NCBI GenBank assembly: GCA_903930515.1
Contig: CAIYYW010000122.1
Coordinates: 1 to 5,574 of the forward strand
Length of the DNA stretch: 5,574 nt
Direction: 5' to 3'
DNA from: an uncultured delta proteobacterium
GTDB lineage: Bacteria; RBG-13-61-14; DRUE01
In this document: positions 423 through 5,574 of the stretch, in pieces
How positions within the stretch are numbered: the first letter of the stretch is position 1
How the letters are laid out: each line of letters opens with the position of its first letter
Made by a program: the position numbers and the translations under genes
Notes under the pieces: model-generated
Told to the model about the DNA's origin: nothing
Databases searched by the model: none
The model's input: only the letters and a program-made list of their open reading frames with translations

Positions 423-1718
423 TCAGTGTCTCCTTATCATCCTTTTAACCATGCGCTCGTGTTCTCTGACATTATGTTTGATCAGCTTCTTGAGTTTTTG
501 TTTCTGAGCAGGGGTCAAATTGAGATCGTCCCAAAGTTTAATGCCGGCATTGATTTCCTCCGGAGTCCGCTTGACGCCTTTTTCTATTTCCGCCTGGACC
601 TCATCCACATTGGCCAGGACCAGGTTGAACTGCTCCGGAGTAAGGATCTGCCTGGCCTGCTTCACCATCTCGGCTCCCAGGAGAGAAGCCTTGCCAATGC
701 CGCCGTCAATCCCGAGCAGCTTGGCCGCCGCCAGCATTTTGGACGGGTCCGAATTCCGGGCCAGGACCTCATCCCTCAACTTGAAGCCGCTCCTGGCAAC
801 CTCGTCCGCGTCCTTGATGATCTCGGCCTTTTTATCTTCCACCAACTTGAAGAGCTGGTCCATCTGTTCCTTGCTCAGCCCCAGGTCATGATATAGCTTC
901 ACCGCGCTCTCTATCTCTTGATGCTGTTTCTTTTCCATTTCCGTTTGCCGGGGCTGGACATACGCTTTTACAATCTTCATCTGCTCGTGAGTGAGGATTC
1001 TCCGGAGCTCATGCCAGATCCGATGTTCTTGATGCCTGGCGAGGTTCTCCTGCATCCTCTCCGCAAAATGCCGCCACCTGATCAAAGAGTCAATTTGTTC
1101 CAAAGACAAATCCAGCTCCCCCCAGAGCGCGATCAAATCTTCCACTTGCTTGGGCATTCCTTTCAAAATATCGTCGCCTTCGGCCTGTCCCTTCTTGATC
1201 AGATCTTCCACCACTGCCCACTGCTCCGGGGTGAGGGTCTGGCGGGCTTCTTTTACCATCTTGGAAAGCTCAATGGCGCCCTCGCCGATGTCTTTGGCGA
1301 GCTTGTCGGAGTTGTCCAGGATGGCCTTGTCTTTAACATTGTCTGCGACAATGGAGTTTTTAAGAGCGATGCCGTCTTTGGTGATGGGATCGGCGTAGGT
1401 CAGGAACAGGGACTCTCGGGAGGACACGATTTTGATCAAGGCGTCTTCTTGTTCCTTGCTCAAGTCAATTTTGTCAAGCGCGTTTAAGAGGTCCTCGTCC
1501 CAAATGAGCATCTTCTCCAAGTCCTTTTGCCGTTGATCCCGGTGAGATTTTTGGAATTCCTTCAGAACCATAATTTGTTCGCGGGTAAGATTATGCCGTC
1601 CGCCTTGCGCTTTTTCCCGGCATTCCTTTTCCTTGCCCGCCACGGAGCTTCCCGGCAAGAGCATTGAGATCAACAATGCCGCGCTCAAAACCATTATCGA
1701 AAATCTGATCCGTTTCAT
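423..1718 (-). CDS. Exported multi-LTxxQ (Spy/CpxP-like) protein with internal duplication
   Basis: The 431-residue product starts with a signal peptide: a basic N-terminus (MKRIR), a hydrophobic core at about residues 7-22, and a likely signal peptidase I site after SVA (25-27). It is therefore probably periplasmic. The mature part is highly charged and helical, with eight L[ST]xxQ motifs at residues 44, 86, 162, 204, 242, 281, 359 and 401. LTxxQ is the signature of the Spy/CpxP/ZraP family of helical periplasmic chaperones and stress regulators, which are normally about 150-170 residues with two such motifs. Here motifs 1-4 and 5-8 repeat with an offset of 195-198 residues, so the protein is two copies of a unit of about 197 residues. 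Both units end in a basic, His-containing segment (RHQEH near 228-232; IRRH at the C-terminus). The only Cys is residue 33. The start is supported by an AGGAGG site 8 nt upstream. Chaperone or metal/envelope-stress function is inferred from the family only. Confidence 0.85.
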   Translation of the reverse strand: MKRIRFSIMVLSAALLISMLLPGSSVAGKEKECREKAQGGRHNLTREQIMVLKEFQKSHRDQRQKDLEKMLIWDEDLLNALDKIDLSKEQEDALIKIVSSRESLFLTYADPITKDGIALKNSIVADNVKDKAILDNSDKLAKDIGEGAIELSKMVKEARQTLTPEQWAVVEDLIKKGQAEGDDILKGMPKQVEDLIALWGELDLSLEQIDSLIRWRHFAERMQENLARHQEHRIWHELRRILTHEQMKIVKAYVQPRQTEMEKKQHQEIESAVKLYHDLGLSKEQMDQLFKLVEDKKAEIIKDADEVARSGFKLRDEVLARNSDPSKMLAAAKLLGIDGGIGKASLLGAEMVKQARQILTPEQFNLVLANVDEVQAEIEKGVKRTPEEINAGIKLWDDLNLTPAQKQKLKKLIKHNVREHERMVKRMIRRH

Positions 1719-1726
1719 TTCCCATT

Positions 1727-1732
1727 CCTCCT
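1727..1732 (-). promoter_or_regulatory. Ribosome binding site of the LTxxQ gene
   Basis: On the minus strand AGGAGG lies 8 nt before the ATG at 1718-1716. It is a full match to the anti-Shine-Dalgarno core at near-ideal spacing, which fixes this start codon and implies efficient translation. Confidence 0.85.
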
Positions 1733-2002: not shown

Positions 2003-2203
2003 ATGAAGGTGAAATGTCCGAGATGCGGGAAGCTGTTGGAATACGAGGGGAACCCGTATCGGCCGTTCTGCTCGGAGCGATGCCGTCTGGTAGATCTGGG
2101 GAAATGGCTGAACGAGGACTACCGGATTCCGGTAAAGGCAGAAGGCGCGGAAGATAAGGATGATGAGGACATTGGGGTGGAAAAGGAGCCGACGGGTCAA
2201 TGA
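2003..2203 (+). CDS. yacG: YacG-family zinc-binding protein (DNA gyrase inhibitor)
   Basis: This 66-residue protein matches the YacG (DUF329) pattern throughout: CPRCGK at residues 5-10, NPYRPFCSERC at 17-27, then DLGKW (31-35) and ExYRIP (38-43). The four cysteines C5, C8, C23 and C27 (CX2C and CX3C) form the zinc site. The tail from residue 47 is acidic and probably disordered. E. coli YacG is a similar size; it binds GyrB and inhibits gyrase, and this role is transferred here by homology. The start is secure on the 5' side because an in-frame TAA lies at 1988-1990. The ribosome binding site (AAAGG, 4 nt spacing) is weak. The stop overlaps the next start as ATGA, so it is the first gene of a glycosyltransferase operon. 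This is unlike the gammaproteobacterial context with coaE and zapD. Confidence 0.93.
   Translation: MKVKCPRCGKLLEYEGNPYRPFCSERCRLVDLGKWLNEDYRIPVKAEGAEDKDDEDIGVEKEPTGQ
2183..2188 (+). promoter_or_regulatory. Ribosome binding site of the GT4 gene
   Basis: AAGGAG lies inside the last codons of yacG, 11 nt before the ATG at 2200. Together with the ATGA stop-start overlap it supports this start and translational coupling. Confidence 0.65.
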
Positions 2204-3288
2204 GGGTGGCGATTTTAAATTCCTGCCGATATATCGGCGGAGCGGAATTATGGCAGATCCGGTTCGCCCGGTTCCTGTTTGAGCGGGGGGACGAGGCCAG
2301 GTTTTTTTTAAGGCCGGGCAAATTTGCGGACCTGGTGGAGGAGGAGCGGTTCAAGTTGCGCCGGATCCCGATGCGGTTTGATTTGGACCCCGTGGCGATA
2401 GGTCGGCTGTTTTTTGCGTTGCGTAAATTCCAGCCGGAGGTTGCGATTTTCAATGACCAGCGCGATCTTCGGGTCGGGGTGATCGCGGCGGATTGGGCCG
2501 GGGTCCCTCTTTTAATTCAGCGCAAGGGCTGGTCTTTTCTCAAGGGCAGTTTCCGGGACCGTTTTTATTACGGCAGGCTGGATTACCTGGTCGCGGTTTC
2601 CAAAGCGATTGAGGATATGTATCGCGCGAAATTGAGATTGCGGGAAGATCGCCTATATTATTTGCCCAACGGGGTCAGCCCGGGCCGGTTTGATCGGGCG
2701 GACGCACTGGAGTTGAGAAGGAAGATCGGGGCGGACGCGGACGAGGTTTTGATCGGGATGGTCGGCCGTCTGGAGCGGCAGAAACGGCAGTCGGATTTGA
2801 TCCGGGCCGGTAAAATGCTGATTGAGCGCGGGGCCAAAATCCGGATCCTTCTCGCCGGAGAGGGCCGGGAGCGGGAGAACCTGGCTCAACTGGCGCGCGA
2901 CCTGGGGATCGCTTACCGGGTCAGCTTGTTGGGATTCGTTGATACCATTGAAGAGTTCCTGGCCGGGCTGGACCTTTTCGTGTTCTGCTCGGAATGGGAA
3001 GGGATGCCCAACGCGGTGCTGGAGGCTCTGGCCGCGGGAAAGCCGGTGGTGGGGGCGGATATAGAGGGCGTGCGGGAGGTAGTGGAAGACGGGAAGAGCG
3101 GAATGTTGTATCCGGCCGGGGATCTGGAGGCGCTTTCCGAGCGGATGGAAAGGCTGATCCGGGACCCGGGTATGGCAAGGGAGATGGGAGAGGCGGCGAG
3201 GAAGCGGATGTCGGATAATTTTGACGAGCAGAAATTATTCCGGGAATTCCGGAATTGGCTGAAGCAGCGGGTTAAGGAGCGGAGATGA
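2200..3288 (+). CDS. Glycosyltransferase family 4 (GT-B fold)
   Basis: This 362-residue protein has the size and two-domain layout of a retaining GT4 enzyme. The N-terminal acceptor domain begins with a beta strand and a glycine loop with GGAE at residues 13-16, as in many GT4 enzymes. The linker region carries YLPNGVS at 154-160. The C-terminal donor domain has GMVGRLERQK (186-195), where R190 and K195 fit the usual diphosphate-binding pair. It continues with ILLAGEG (216-222), LLGFVD (243-248), and the diagnostic EX7E motif formed by E267 and E275 in WEGMPNAVLEAL. The enzyme probably moves a sugar from a nucleotide donor to a lipid-linked or surface glycan on the cytoplasmic face of the membrane. 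Neither donor nor acceptor can be told from the sequence. There are no transmembrane segments. It overlaps yacG and the next gene by ATGA on both sides, so all are probably co-translated. Confidence 0.92.
   Translation: MRVAILNSCRYIGGAELWQIRFARFLFERGDEARFFLRPGKFADLVEEERFKLRRIPMRFDLDPVAIGRLFFALRKFQPEVAIFNDQRDLRVGVIAADWAGVPLLIQRKGWSFLKGSFRDRFYYGRLDYLVAVSKAIEDMYRAKLRLREDRLYYLPNGVSPGRFDRADALELRRKIGADADEVLIGMVGRLERQKRQSDLIRAGKMLIERGAKIRILLAGEGRERENLAQLARDLGIAYRVSLLGFVDTIEEFLAGLDLFVFCSEWEGMPNAVLEALAAGKPVVGADIEGVREVVEDGKSGMLYPAGDLEALSERMERLIRDPGMAREMGEAARKRMSDNFDEQKLFREFRNWLKQRVKERR
3273..3279 (+). promoter_or_regulatory. Ribosome binding site of the first TPR-GT2 gene
   Basis: TAAGGAG lies within the last codons of the GT4 gene, 5 nt before the ATG at 3285. 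It is a near-perfect Shine-Dalgarno at a slightly short spacing and decides this start. Confidence 0.75.
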
Positions 3289-4577
3289 AATCATATCCGG
3301 GCGTGGACAAGGTGCGGAGGTTTTTGCTCAATCACCAGTGGGTGGAGGCGGAGCGGTTCCTGGAAGAGGTGATGGCGGTGAGCGAGAACGCCGGGGCGCT
3401 CAACGACCTGGCCCTGATCTACGCTCGGACCGGGGAATGGGAACAGGCGCGGAGGCTGATGGAATCGGCGATGCAACAGCCGGACCGGGATGTTCGGACC
3501 CGGATCAATTATTTTTATATCGCCGAGTTGATGGCTCTGGACCAGAGCCGGGGAGAAAAGGCCCGGGAGCGCGTCCTGGACCTCAAGGTCGGGGATCAGG
3601 CCCTCAAGCCCAGGCTCAGCATCGTGATGCGGACCTTGAACCGCGGGGAGATGATCCGGGGCGCGCTGAAAAGCGTTCTGGACCAGAACTTCAAAAACTG
3701 GGAGTTGGTCATTGTCAATGACGGCGGAGAGCGCGCGGTGGAGCAAATCCTGGAAAGCCTCTGGGACAGGCGGATGGTTTACGCATACGCGCGTCATTCC
3801 GGGCCGGCCGGCGCGTTCAATGTCGGGCTTCGGCTGGCGCGCGGGGAGATGATCGGTTTTTTGGATGATGACGATCTGGCATATCCGGAAAGCTGGGACC
3901 GGCTTCAGAACCATCTTGAAACGCATCCGGATTCCCGGGCGGTTTATTCCGACCTCAACCTGGCCTGGATGGACCTAAAGACCGGGGCCGCAAAACGGAC
4001 CCGGCCTCATCCGAACGGCGAGTTCCAGCGAGAAAAACTCTGGAGCGGATTTTTCATAATGAACCTGATGACCCTGGTGATCAGAAGGGAGTGCCTGGAG
4101 CGGATGCCTGGTTTTTTGGAAGGTTTGAGCAGCTCGGTGGATTGGGAGTTTTTGCTCGCGCTCAGCCATCACACGAATTTTGATTACCTCAAGAATACGG
4201 CCGGGGAGTTAAGGTATTGGGAAGGACTGGACCAGGTCGGGAAACGGTCCGTCCTGGACCGGAACCATCAGCGCAACCTGATTTCTTACTTACACGGCAT
4301 CACCCCCTTTTATCAATTCGGCTTCGGCGGAAAGGAGCTGCATTCAAAATTCCTGGAAACGCTGGAGCGGTTGCTGACAAAATTTCCGGACCTGATCCGG
4401 GGCTTGGAACTGCGCAAGTTGTTGAACGAGCCGGCCTACTCGATGTTTTATCAGCTCGGGGTTGAGTTGTTGAAGGAAGGCAAAAAGAGGGAGGCGCGGG
4501 AATGTTTCAGTTGCGCGGGGAAGCTGGCTCCGGGCGAGACCAGGATTTGGTGGAAACTGGTCAGGAGCTGGTTTTGA
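3285..4577 (+). CDS. TPR-GT2 fusion glycosyltransferase
   Basis: The 430-residue protein has three parts. Residues 8-100 are helical and TPR-like, with a clear repeat at about 38-65 (ALNDLALIYARTGEWEQARR). Residues 109-320 are a GT2 (GT-A fold) domain: RLSIVMRTLNR (110-120), NDGG nucleotide-binding turn (145-148), and GFLDDDD (191-197), which supplies the metal-binding DXD. It also has DWE (286-288) at the position of the usual catalytic-base motif. Residues 385-417 look like one more TPR (YQLGVELLKEGKKREARECF). All expected GT2 active-site motifs are present, so the enzyme is probably active and inverting. TPRs may bind an acceptor protein or partner enzymes, as in some protein or flagellin glycosylation loci, but this is inference. 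It has no membrane segment. It overlaps the GT4 gene by ATGA and the next gene by TGATG. Confidence 0.88.
   Translation: MKSYPGVDKVRRFLLNHQWVEAERFLEEVMAVSENAGALNDLALIYARTGEWEQARRLMESAMQQPDRDVRTRINYFYIAELMALDQSRGEKARERVLDLKVGDQALKPRLSIVMRTLNRGEMIRGALKSVLDQNFKNWELVIVNDGGERAVEQILESLWDRRMVYAYARHSGPAGAFNVGLRLARGEMIGFLDDDDLAYPESWDRLQNHLETHPDSRAVYSDLNLAWMDLKTGAAKRTRPHPNGEFQREKLWSGFFIMNLMTLVIRRECLERMPGFLEGLSSSVDWEFLLALSHHTNFDYLKNTAGELRYWEGLDQVGKRSVLDRNHQRNLISYLHGITPFYQFGFGGKELHSKFLETLERLLTKFPDLIRGLELRKLLNEPAYSMFYQLGVELLKEGKKREARECFSCAGKLAPGETRIWWKLVRSWF
4563..4567 (+). promoter_or_regulatory. Ribosome binding site of the second TPR-GT2 gene
   Basis: AGGAG sits in the last codons of the preceding gene, 9 nt before the ATG at 4577. 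With the TGATG overlap it marks the start of the last gene. Confidence 0.65.
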
Positions 4578-5574
4578 TGAATGTCGCTTATGAGAAGGCC
4601 AAAAAGCTGATCCGGGAGGGCAGCCTGGAGGCCGGCGCGGTGGAGTTGGGGAAGCTTCTTGACCCGGAGGCGGGCGCGGAGTTGCTCAATGACCTTGGGG
4701 TTTGCAACTATCTCCTGGACCGGCCGGAACCGGCGCTGGATTTTTTTGCCCAGGCCTTGAAAAAATCTCCTTCCTTCTGCCTGGCCGGGATCAATTTATT
4801 TTATCTGGAAAAAGCGCTTGAGCTCAGGCGCAAAGGGTATCTCCAGTTCCGCCATATTGATCACGACCTACTTCCGGAAAACCGGCCTCGGCCCAAGGTC
4901 AGCCTGATCGTCCGAACCTACAACCGTCCGGATTTGCTTAAAGAAGCGCTCAGGAGCGTGAGCAAGCAGACCTTCCGGGATTTTGAGACCATCTTGATCA
5001 ATGACGGCGGCGCCAAGGAAGCGGAAGCCGTTGCGAAAGAAATCAACCCGCCCGGGCTGAGATATTTTATGGCCCCGCATTGCGGGCCGGGAGCGGCCCT
5101 GAACCGGGGGTTGGAAATGGCGCGCGGCGATTTCATCGGTTTTCTTGATGATGACGACCTGATCTATCCGAACCACCTGGAGGCCTTGCTTAAGCGGCTG
5201 GAGGCGGAAGCAACCGCGGGGCTGGCGTATCCGGAGGTGAAGATCAATTTTTTCGACCGGCGCGGAAACCTGGTCCGGTCCGAGCTCAACCGCGAGCCAA
5301 CGATTGATTACGCCAAATGCGTCCGCTACGACCCGATCGTGTCAATGCTGATCCTGGCGAGCCGGGAATGTTTTGAACAGGCCGGGATGTTCATTGAGGA
5401 GTTGGTCACCACCGCGCACGACTGGGAGATGTGGCTCCGGATCATCAAGCGTCACCCGTTCTATCACCTCCCCACAGTCACCTGCGAATACCAGGAGCGG
5501 GTCCGCAGTGACCGCGCGACCCGGAAGGGATTGTATGAGCGATATTATTACAGCAACCTGATGCATTACCTGCA
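4577..5574 (+). CDS. Second TPR-GT2 fusion glycosyltransferase, 3' end missing
   Basis: The frame runs from ATG 4577-4579, sharing one base with the previous TGA, to the window edge without a stop; 332 complete codons are visible. Residues 1-95 are a TPR-like helical region, with the best repeat at about 35-64 (ELLNDLGVCNYLLDRPEPAL). Residues 106-320 are a GT2 domain: VSLIVRTYNRPDLL (108-121), NDGG (142-145), GFLDDDD (188-194) giving the DXD, and HDWEMW (281-286) at the catalytic-base position. The order of domains and the sequence around each motif match the previous gene, for example HCGPGAALNRGLEMARGDFIG against HSGPAGAFNVGLRLARGEMIG. The two are therefore paralogues from a tandem duplication. 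A C-terminal TPR like that of its neighbour may lie beyond the edge. The sugar and acceptor are unknown. Confidence 0.88.
   Translation, partial: MNVAYEKAKKLIREGSLEAGAVELGKLLDPEAGAELLNDLGVCNYLLDRPEPALDFFAQALKKSPSFCLAGINLFYLEKALELRRKGYLQFRHIDHDLLPENRPRPKVSLIVRTYNRPDLLKEALRSVSKQTFRDFETILINDGGAKEAEAVAKEINPPGLRYFMAPHCGPGAALNRGLEMARGDFIGFLDDDDLIYPNHLEALLKRLEAEATAGLAYPEVKINFFDRRGNLVRSELNREPTIDYAKCVRYDPIVSMLILASRECFEQAGMFIEELVTTAHDWEMWLRIIKRHPFYHLPTVTCEYQERVRSDRATRKGLYERYYYSNLMHYL

Follow-up and report, generated by a model that had tools for sequence, protein, structure and literature searches.

The LTXXQ gene and its surroundings

The window, meaning the whole stretch of 5,574 nucleotides that was analysed, is a contig of 5.6 kb on which an LTXXQ (Spy/CpxP-family) gene lies beside RCC1 repeats, yacG and glycosyltransferase genes (Table 1). 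The gene is encoded on the minus strand; the plus strand of 423-1718 contains in-frame stops. Codon usage in the LTXXQ gene is close to that of the adjoining glycosyltransferase genes, with an r of 0.69 compared to 0.35-0.40 for shadow ORFs. A promoter scan of the minus strand 5' of the gene returned no site. By inspection of the sequence, the N-terminus shows the features of a signal peptide, with a basic n-region, a hydrophobic core and the ending ...SSVAG, and no lipobox was seen in it. Its removal would leave a mature protein of 403 residues.

The cut RCC1-repeat gene at the start of the contig is convergent with the LTXXQ gene, and yacG is divergent from it. yacG is immediately 5' of the first glycosyltransferase gene, their ends overlapping. 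The two following genes are adjoining TPR and GT2 glycosyltransferase paralogues; the likely true start of the last one is the ATG at 4577, which overlaps the stop of the preceding gene, and not position 4502.

Table 1. Features of the window and the basis on which each was assigned. Residues are numbered from the initiator methionine of the LTXXQ protein.
Feature	Position	Strand	Basis
RCC1-repeat protein, C-terminal end, cut by contig start	1..249	plus	
LTXXQ (Spy/CpxP-family) gene, 431 aa, tandem-duplicated	423..1718	minus	ORF; PF07813 and home-made LTXXQ profile
Repeat unit 2, residues 239-431 (motifs 242, 281, 359, 401)	426..1004	minus	self-alignment, alignment, model (six helices, pLDDT 74)
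C-terminal single LTxxQ helix and basic tail, residues 394-427 (LTPAQ 401)	438..539	minus	profile, 14.1 bits; Pfam best stretch 394-424
Full Spy domain 2, residues 273-368 (LSKEQ 281 - 78 - LTPEQ 359)	615..902	minus	profile positions 8-101 of 108, 37.4 bits; model
Shortened LTxxQ hairpin between domains, residues 197-256 (LSLEQ 204 - 38 - LTHEQ 242)	951..1130	minus	profile, 2.7 + 10.2 bits
Repeat unit 1, residues 41-238 (motifs 44, 86, 162, 204)	1005..1598	minus	self-alignment (z ~25), pairwise alignment
Full Spy domain 1, residues 79-176 (LSKEQ 86 - 76 - LTPEQ 162)	1191..1484	minus	profile positions 9-106 of 108, 32.5 bits
N-terminal single LTxxQ helix, residues 40-81 (LTREQ 44)	1476..1601	minus	partial profile match, 8.1 bits
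Putative N-terminal signal peptide, residues 1-28	1635..1718	minus	sequence inspection only
Shine-Dalgarno AGGAGG, 8 nt ahead of ATG	1727..1732	minus	read directly in sequence
yacG (DNA gyrase inhibitor, PF03884)	2003..2203	plus	
Glycosyltransferase gene	2200..3288	plus	
TPR + GT2 glycosyltransferase gene	3285..4577	plus	
TPR + GT2 glycosyltransferase gene, paralogue of the preceding	4502..5572	plus	

Eight motifs in a tandem duplication

L[ST]xxQ motifs occur at residues 44, 86, 162, 204, 242, 281, 359 and 401 of the 431-residue protein, each where the initial annotation had placed it. Shuffled versions of the mature sequence contain 0.2 such motifs on average and never more than 3 (5000 shuffles). 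The annotation had also described the protein as a tandem duplication whose copies agree in the sequence flanking the motifs. Both points were borne out by alignment: residues 41-233 aligned locally with residues 239-430 with a score of 202, compared to 39 ± 6 for shuffled sequences (z ~25), the two halves share 29% identity, and the quoted flanking matches were found. Thus, the two halves are a true tandem duplication, in which a unit of approximately 197 residues was copied within the gene. An assembly artefact was considered as the origin of the repeat and rejected, because the copies are merely 29% identical. Neighbouring quarters inside each half are also alike (z of 7.5 and 12.5 in the self-alignment), as expected from repeated LTxxQ helices.

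The copies had further been said to end alike, in basic His-rich segments. These segments are present but mild, and strong basic character is confined to the C-terminal one, with 3 His, 11 Lys/Arg and 2 Asp/Glu in residues 400-431, compared to 4 His, 7 Lys/Arg and 6 Asp/Glu in residues 205-241.

Family membership

The LTXXQ model PF07813 matched the whole protein with 28.9 bits (curated gathering cut-off 24.3; E 2e-6) in two stretches, the best of which covers residues 394-424. Scored stretch by stretch, as in a genome-wide frame search, the same model reached 21.6 bits. This is below the cut-off, so the pass rests on the summed stretches. We also built our own LTXXQ profile from 33 windows containing two motifs approximately 76 residues apart, taken from loci of many genomes and from E. 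coli Spy. Two of these 33 windows are off-register inside one tandem relative (L036, see below); they add slight noise to the profile and were left out of the tree. With this profile the protein scored 90 bits, whereas the best of 2000 shuffled sequences reached 8. The NCBIfam equivalog models for Spy (NF007769; 16.9 bits, cut-off 174) and CpxP (NF007687; 16.8 bits, cut-off 160) scored far under their cut-offs. The protein is thus a member of the LTXXQ (Spy/CpxP/ZraP/CnrX) family, well known for its bacterial stress chaperones, yet no orthologue of Spy or CpxP. The family assignment given initially is upheld by PF07813, the home-made profile and the structure match described below. Pfam matches to Peptidase_M15_2, RFC1 and Exotox-A_target were under their cut-offs and were taken as chance.

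Two Spy domains with additional LTxxQ segments

What stays constant among single-domain members is the distance between the two motifs, which are 75-77 residues apart in 31 of the 33 reference windows. The window protein has motif pairs separated by 76 residues (86-162), by 78 residues, one residue outside this range (281-359), and by 38 residues (204-242). The profile matches in the last pair, residues 197-221 and 229-256, correspond to both ends of the model with its middle missing. The 204-242 pair accordingly corresponds to a hairpin that lacks the middle helices. Motifs 44 and 401 each mark a lone helix at one end of the chain.

The protein had initially been credited with the equivalent of four Spy domains. 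This count was not retained: since only the 86-162 and 281-359 pairs fit, or nearly fit, the canonical spacing, the chain contains two Spy domains and some extra segments. Such an organization is better suited to one covalent pseudo-dimer than to a cage of four domains.

Predicted structure of one repeat unit

The full chain, predicted by AF2 from its single sequence, gave an unusable model (pLDDT 40). For unit 2 (residues 239-431), an alignment of 8 rows was assembled, which also held unit 1 and domains from three tandem relatives. The best of the five resulting models had a pLDDT of 74.4 and a pTM of 0.51 (the others reached at most 55); it is all-helical, with six helices, and each LTxxQ motif is predicted at a helix N-terminus.

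Comparison of this unit with Spy had been proposed in the initial annotation, and the predicted helical model indeed matches Spy, CnrX, CpxP and ZraP. Foldseek ranked Spy (6owy) first with a probability of 1.00 and weak E-values, 0.09 and above; CnrX, a VirG-like STV protein and CpxP (3itf) were among the next rows. VIA-align placed ZraP (3lay_A) at the top (Z of 9.8, 1.1 Å across 77 residues) and gave CnrX (2y39) a Z of 8.1 across 102 residues; helical Z-scores below approximately 13 are not decisive alone. When the protein alone was used as a phmmer query against the PDB, neither Spy nor any other relevant match was returned, whereas a profile of the unit-2 alignment, relatives included, found Spy and CpxP with E-values of 8e-5 to 4e-4. 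The structure matches of the unit 2 model agree with the sequence evidence for a Spy-type fold.

Distribution and origin of the doubled architecture

Three genomes of the host phylum were examined, including that of the window itself, and only the window's own genome carries the gene. In one of the others (G001), the contig that matches the locus (C556, match from base 155) breaks just 5' of the glycosyltransferase gene. Absence from that genome is therefore weak evidence. Close homologues were not found in the genome contigs, viral contigs, plasmids or two other host-phylum genomes searched, and a profile search of the phyla to which the two nearest relatives belong yielded no tandem homologue.

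Of 386 other genomes, 7 gave distant matches to a two-row profile, mostly over the canonical domain. One of these matches (in G381) is the tandem protein L036, and the others are single-domain proteins. PF07813 itself exceeded its cut-off in 168 of the 386 genomes. Among 61 ORFs with a profile match, a sample chosen by the search and not at random, 49 have one full domain. In this sample, the only proteins with two full domains are the window protein and a family of 306-315 residues from three MAGs, RS_13_36, CSMAG_496 and RS_2_16 (L036/L053, L054 and L055). Like the window protein, members of this family are exported and carry two full Spy domains per chain, which are separated by a partial third LTxxQ segment. 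Unlike it, they have a shorter middle segment, lack end helices and contain four or five motifs.

In the domain tree, the two full domains of the window protein are sisters (98/89), and so are the two domains of the L036 family (99/98). Since the sister domains lie within each protein, the two duplications are separate, and an unrelated bacterial lineage has produced a comparable doubled protein. The tree thus indicates that the duplication arose in the window protein's own lineage, and that tandem LTXXQ proteins arose at least twice. The doubled architecture is real and uncommon, rare but not unique, and varies a theme that is already known. The open-access literature searched yielded no paper dealing with a tandem LTXXQ protein. 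With at least two origins, joining Spy domains in one chain may confer a selective advantage.

Comparison with characterised LTXXQ proteins

The Spy monomer consists of four helices, and its homodimer forms a cradle whose concave face holds unfolded clients independently of ATP (PMC8144458, PMC3910116). E. coli Spy (3o39, 3oeo, 6owy) is the best Foldseek match of the unit 2 model and also a profile match in the PDB. The two have in common an export signal and a four-helix domain with two LTxxQ motifs approximately 72-76 residues apart. However, Spy is a homodimer of single-domain chains of 138 mature residues, whereas in the window protein a single chain of 403 residues combines two domains with a hairpin and helices at the ends. 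The fold is also shared by CpxP (3itf, 3qzc), ZraP (3lay) and, over approximately 102 residues, the metal sensor CnrX (2y39); all three are single-domain proteins, unlike the window protein.

The rank of ZraP (3lay_A) and CnrX among the best structural matches, together with His clusters at 212-236 and 415-431, might point to metal binding or sensing. In that case the protein, with Zn, Ni or Co bound by its His-bearing helices, would serve as a metal buffer or control an envelope regulator. We consider this unlikely: the 403 mature residues include only 12 His and 1 Cys, both clusters are located at the unit ends, outside the full Spy domains, and the short 5.6-kb contig carries no sigma/anti-sigma pair, sensor kinase, RND or P-type metal pump. 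CpxP and ZraP accompany the Cpx and Zra two-component systems, and CnrX is membrane-anchored and encoded in an operon with CnrY/H. Neither two-component genes of the Cpx/Zra type nor an operon of the CnrY/H type was seen on the contig.

In overall charge, the mature window protein is near-neutral (pI 6.71), in contrast to the mature Spy (pI 9.45), whose cradle is strongly basic; full Spy domain 1 is acidic, with a net charge of approximately -4. With such values, it is not evident that the protein captures clients electrostatically, as Spy does. This charge, the low similarity to characterised members (phmmer with the single protein sequence missed Spy in the PDB) and the lack of a close homologue in the genomes searched would all fit a helical periplasmic protein that has diverged, such as a structural protein of the envelope, and that has kept the family resemblance and lost the chaperone function. 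Such a loss appears very improbable: although the copies share only 29% identity, both have retained their motifs, eight in all, and the canonical 76/78 spacing, a sign that the fold has stayed under selection.

A candidate single-chain chaperone

The function that we favour, with about an even chance of being correct, is that of an ATP-independent periplasmic holdase whose single chain forms a Spy-like pseudo-dimer. On this reading, the protein is exported to the periplasm through its putative signal peptide, and each unit provides one complete four-helix Spy domain and extra LTxxQ-capped helices. The hairpin (residues 197-256) covalently connects the two domains, which would then most likely join into a cradle-like pseudo-dimer, as the Spy homodimer does with two chains. 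The end helices (motifs 44 and 401) may act as caps or pack against one another. Under stress, the cradle would bind unfolded envelope proteins without ATP; the 5.6-kb contig carries no stress regulator and no metal-resistance neighbour.

The Spy domains might instead pair across chains and build a larger oligomer, scaffold or cage. ZraP is a decamer barrel according to the title of entry 3lay, and tandem proteins would be able to cross-link dimers. This arrangement is nevertheless improbable, since the join between the domains, approximately 100 residues with an LTxxQ hairpin of its own, is long enough for pairing within one chain. A more elaborate version of intramolecular pairing is also conceivable, in which the helices of motifs 44 and 401 would pair as a split short hairpin equivalent to 204-242, closing the chain into a two-fold pseudo-symmetric ring or clamp round the client. 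We regard this version as quite speculative and give it little weight; if true, it would be a chaperone architecture undescribed for the LTXXQ family in the literature searched.

If the chain works as a covalent Spy pseudo-dimer, it would be a naturally occurring equivalent of linked dimers made by engineering. Mutating one domain at a time within the single chain would then reveal whether both cradle halves are required to bind clients, which is difficult to address with a homodimer.

Other LTXXQ repeat architectures

Several LTxxQ pairs, including short-spaced ones like the 204-242 pair, were also seen in short four-motif proteins, two from one locus (L030; 216 and 197 aa) and one of 340 aa (L064), in none of which the profile found a full-spaced domain. 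The two LTXXQ proteins of L030 (G017:C31) each have at least four motifs, with pairs approximately 51 and 52, or 51 and 23, residues apart, and form a short-type tandem subfamily. Finally, a minus-strand ORF of 927 aa in another genome (L058, G137) encodes a large exported protein with short-type LTXXQ repeats at its N-terminal end. The remainder of this protein resembles, by eye, secretin N-domain repeats, and the protein thus represents a further LTXXQ fusion architecture.
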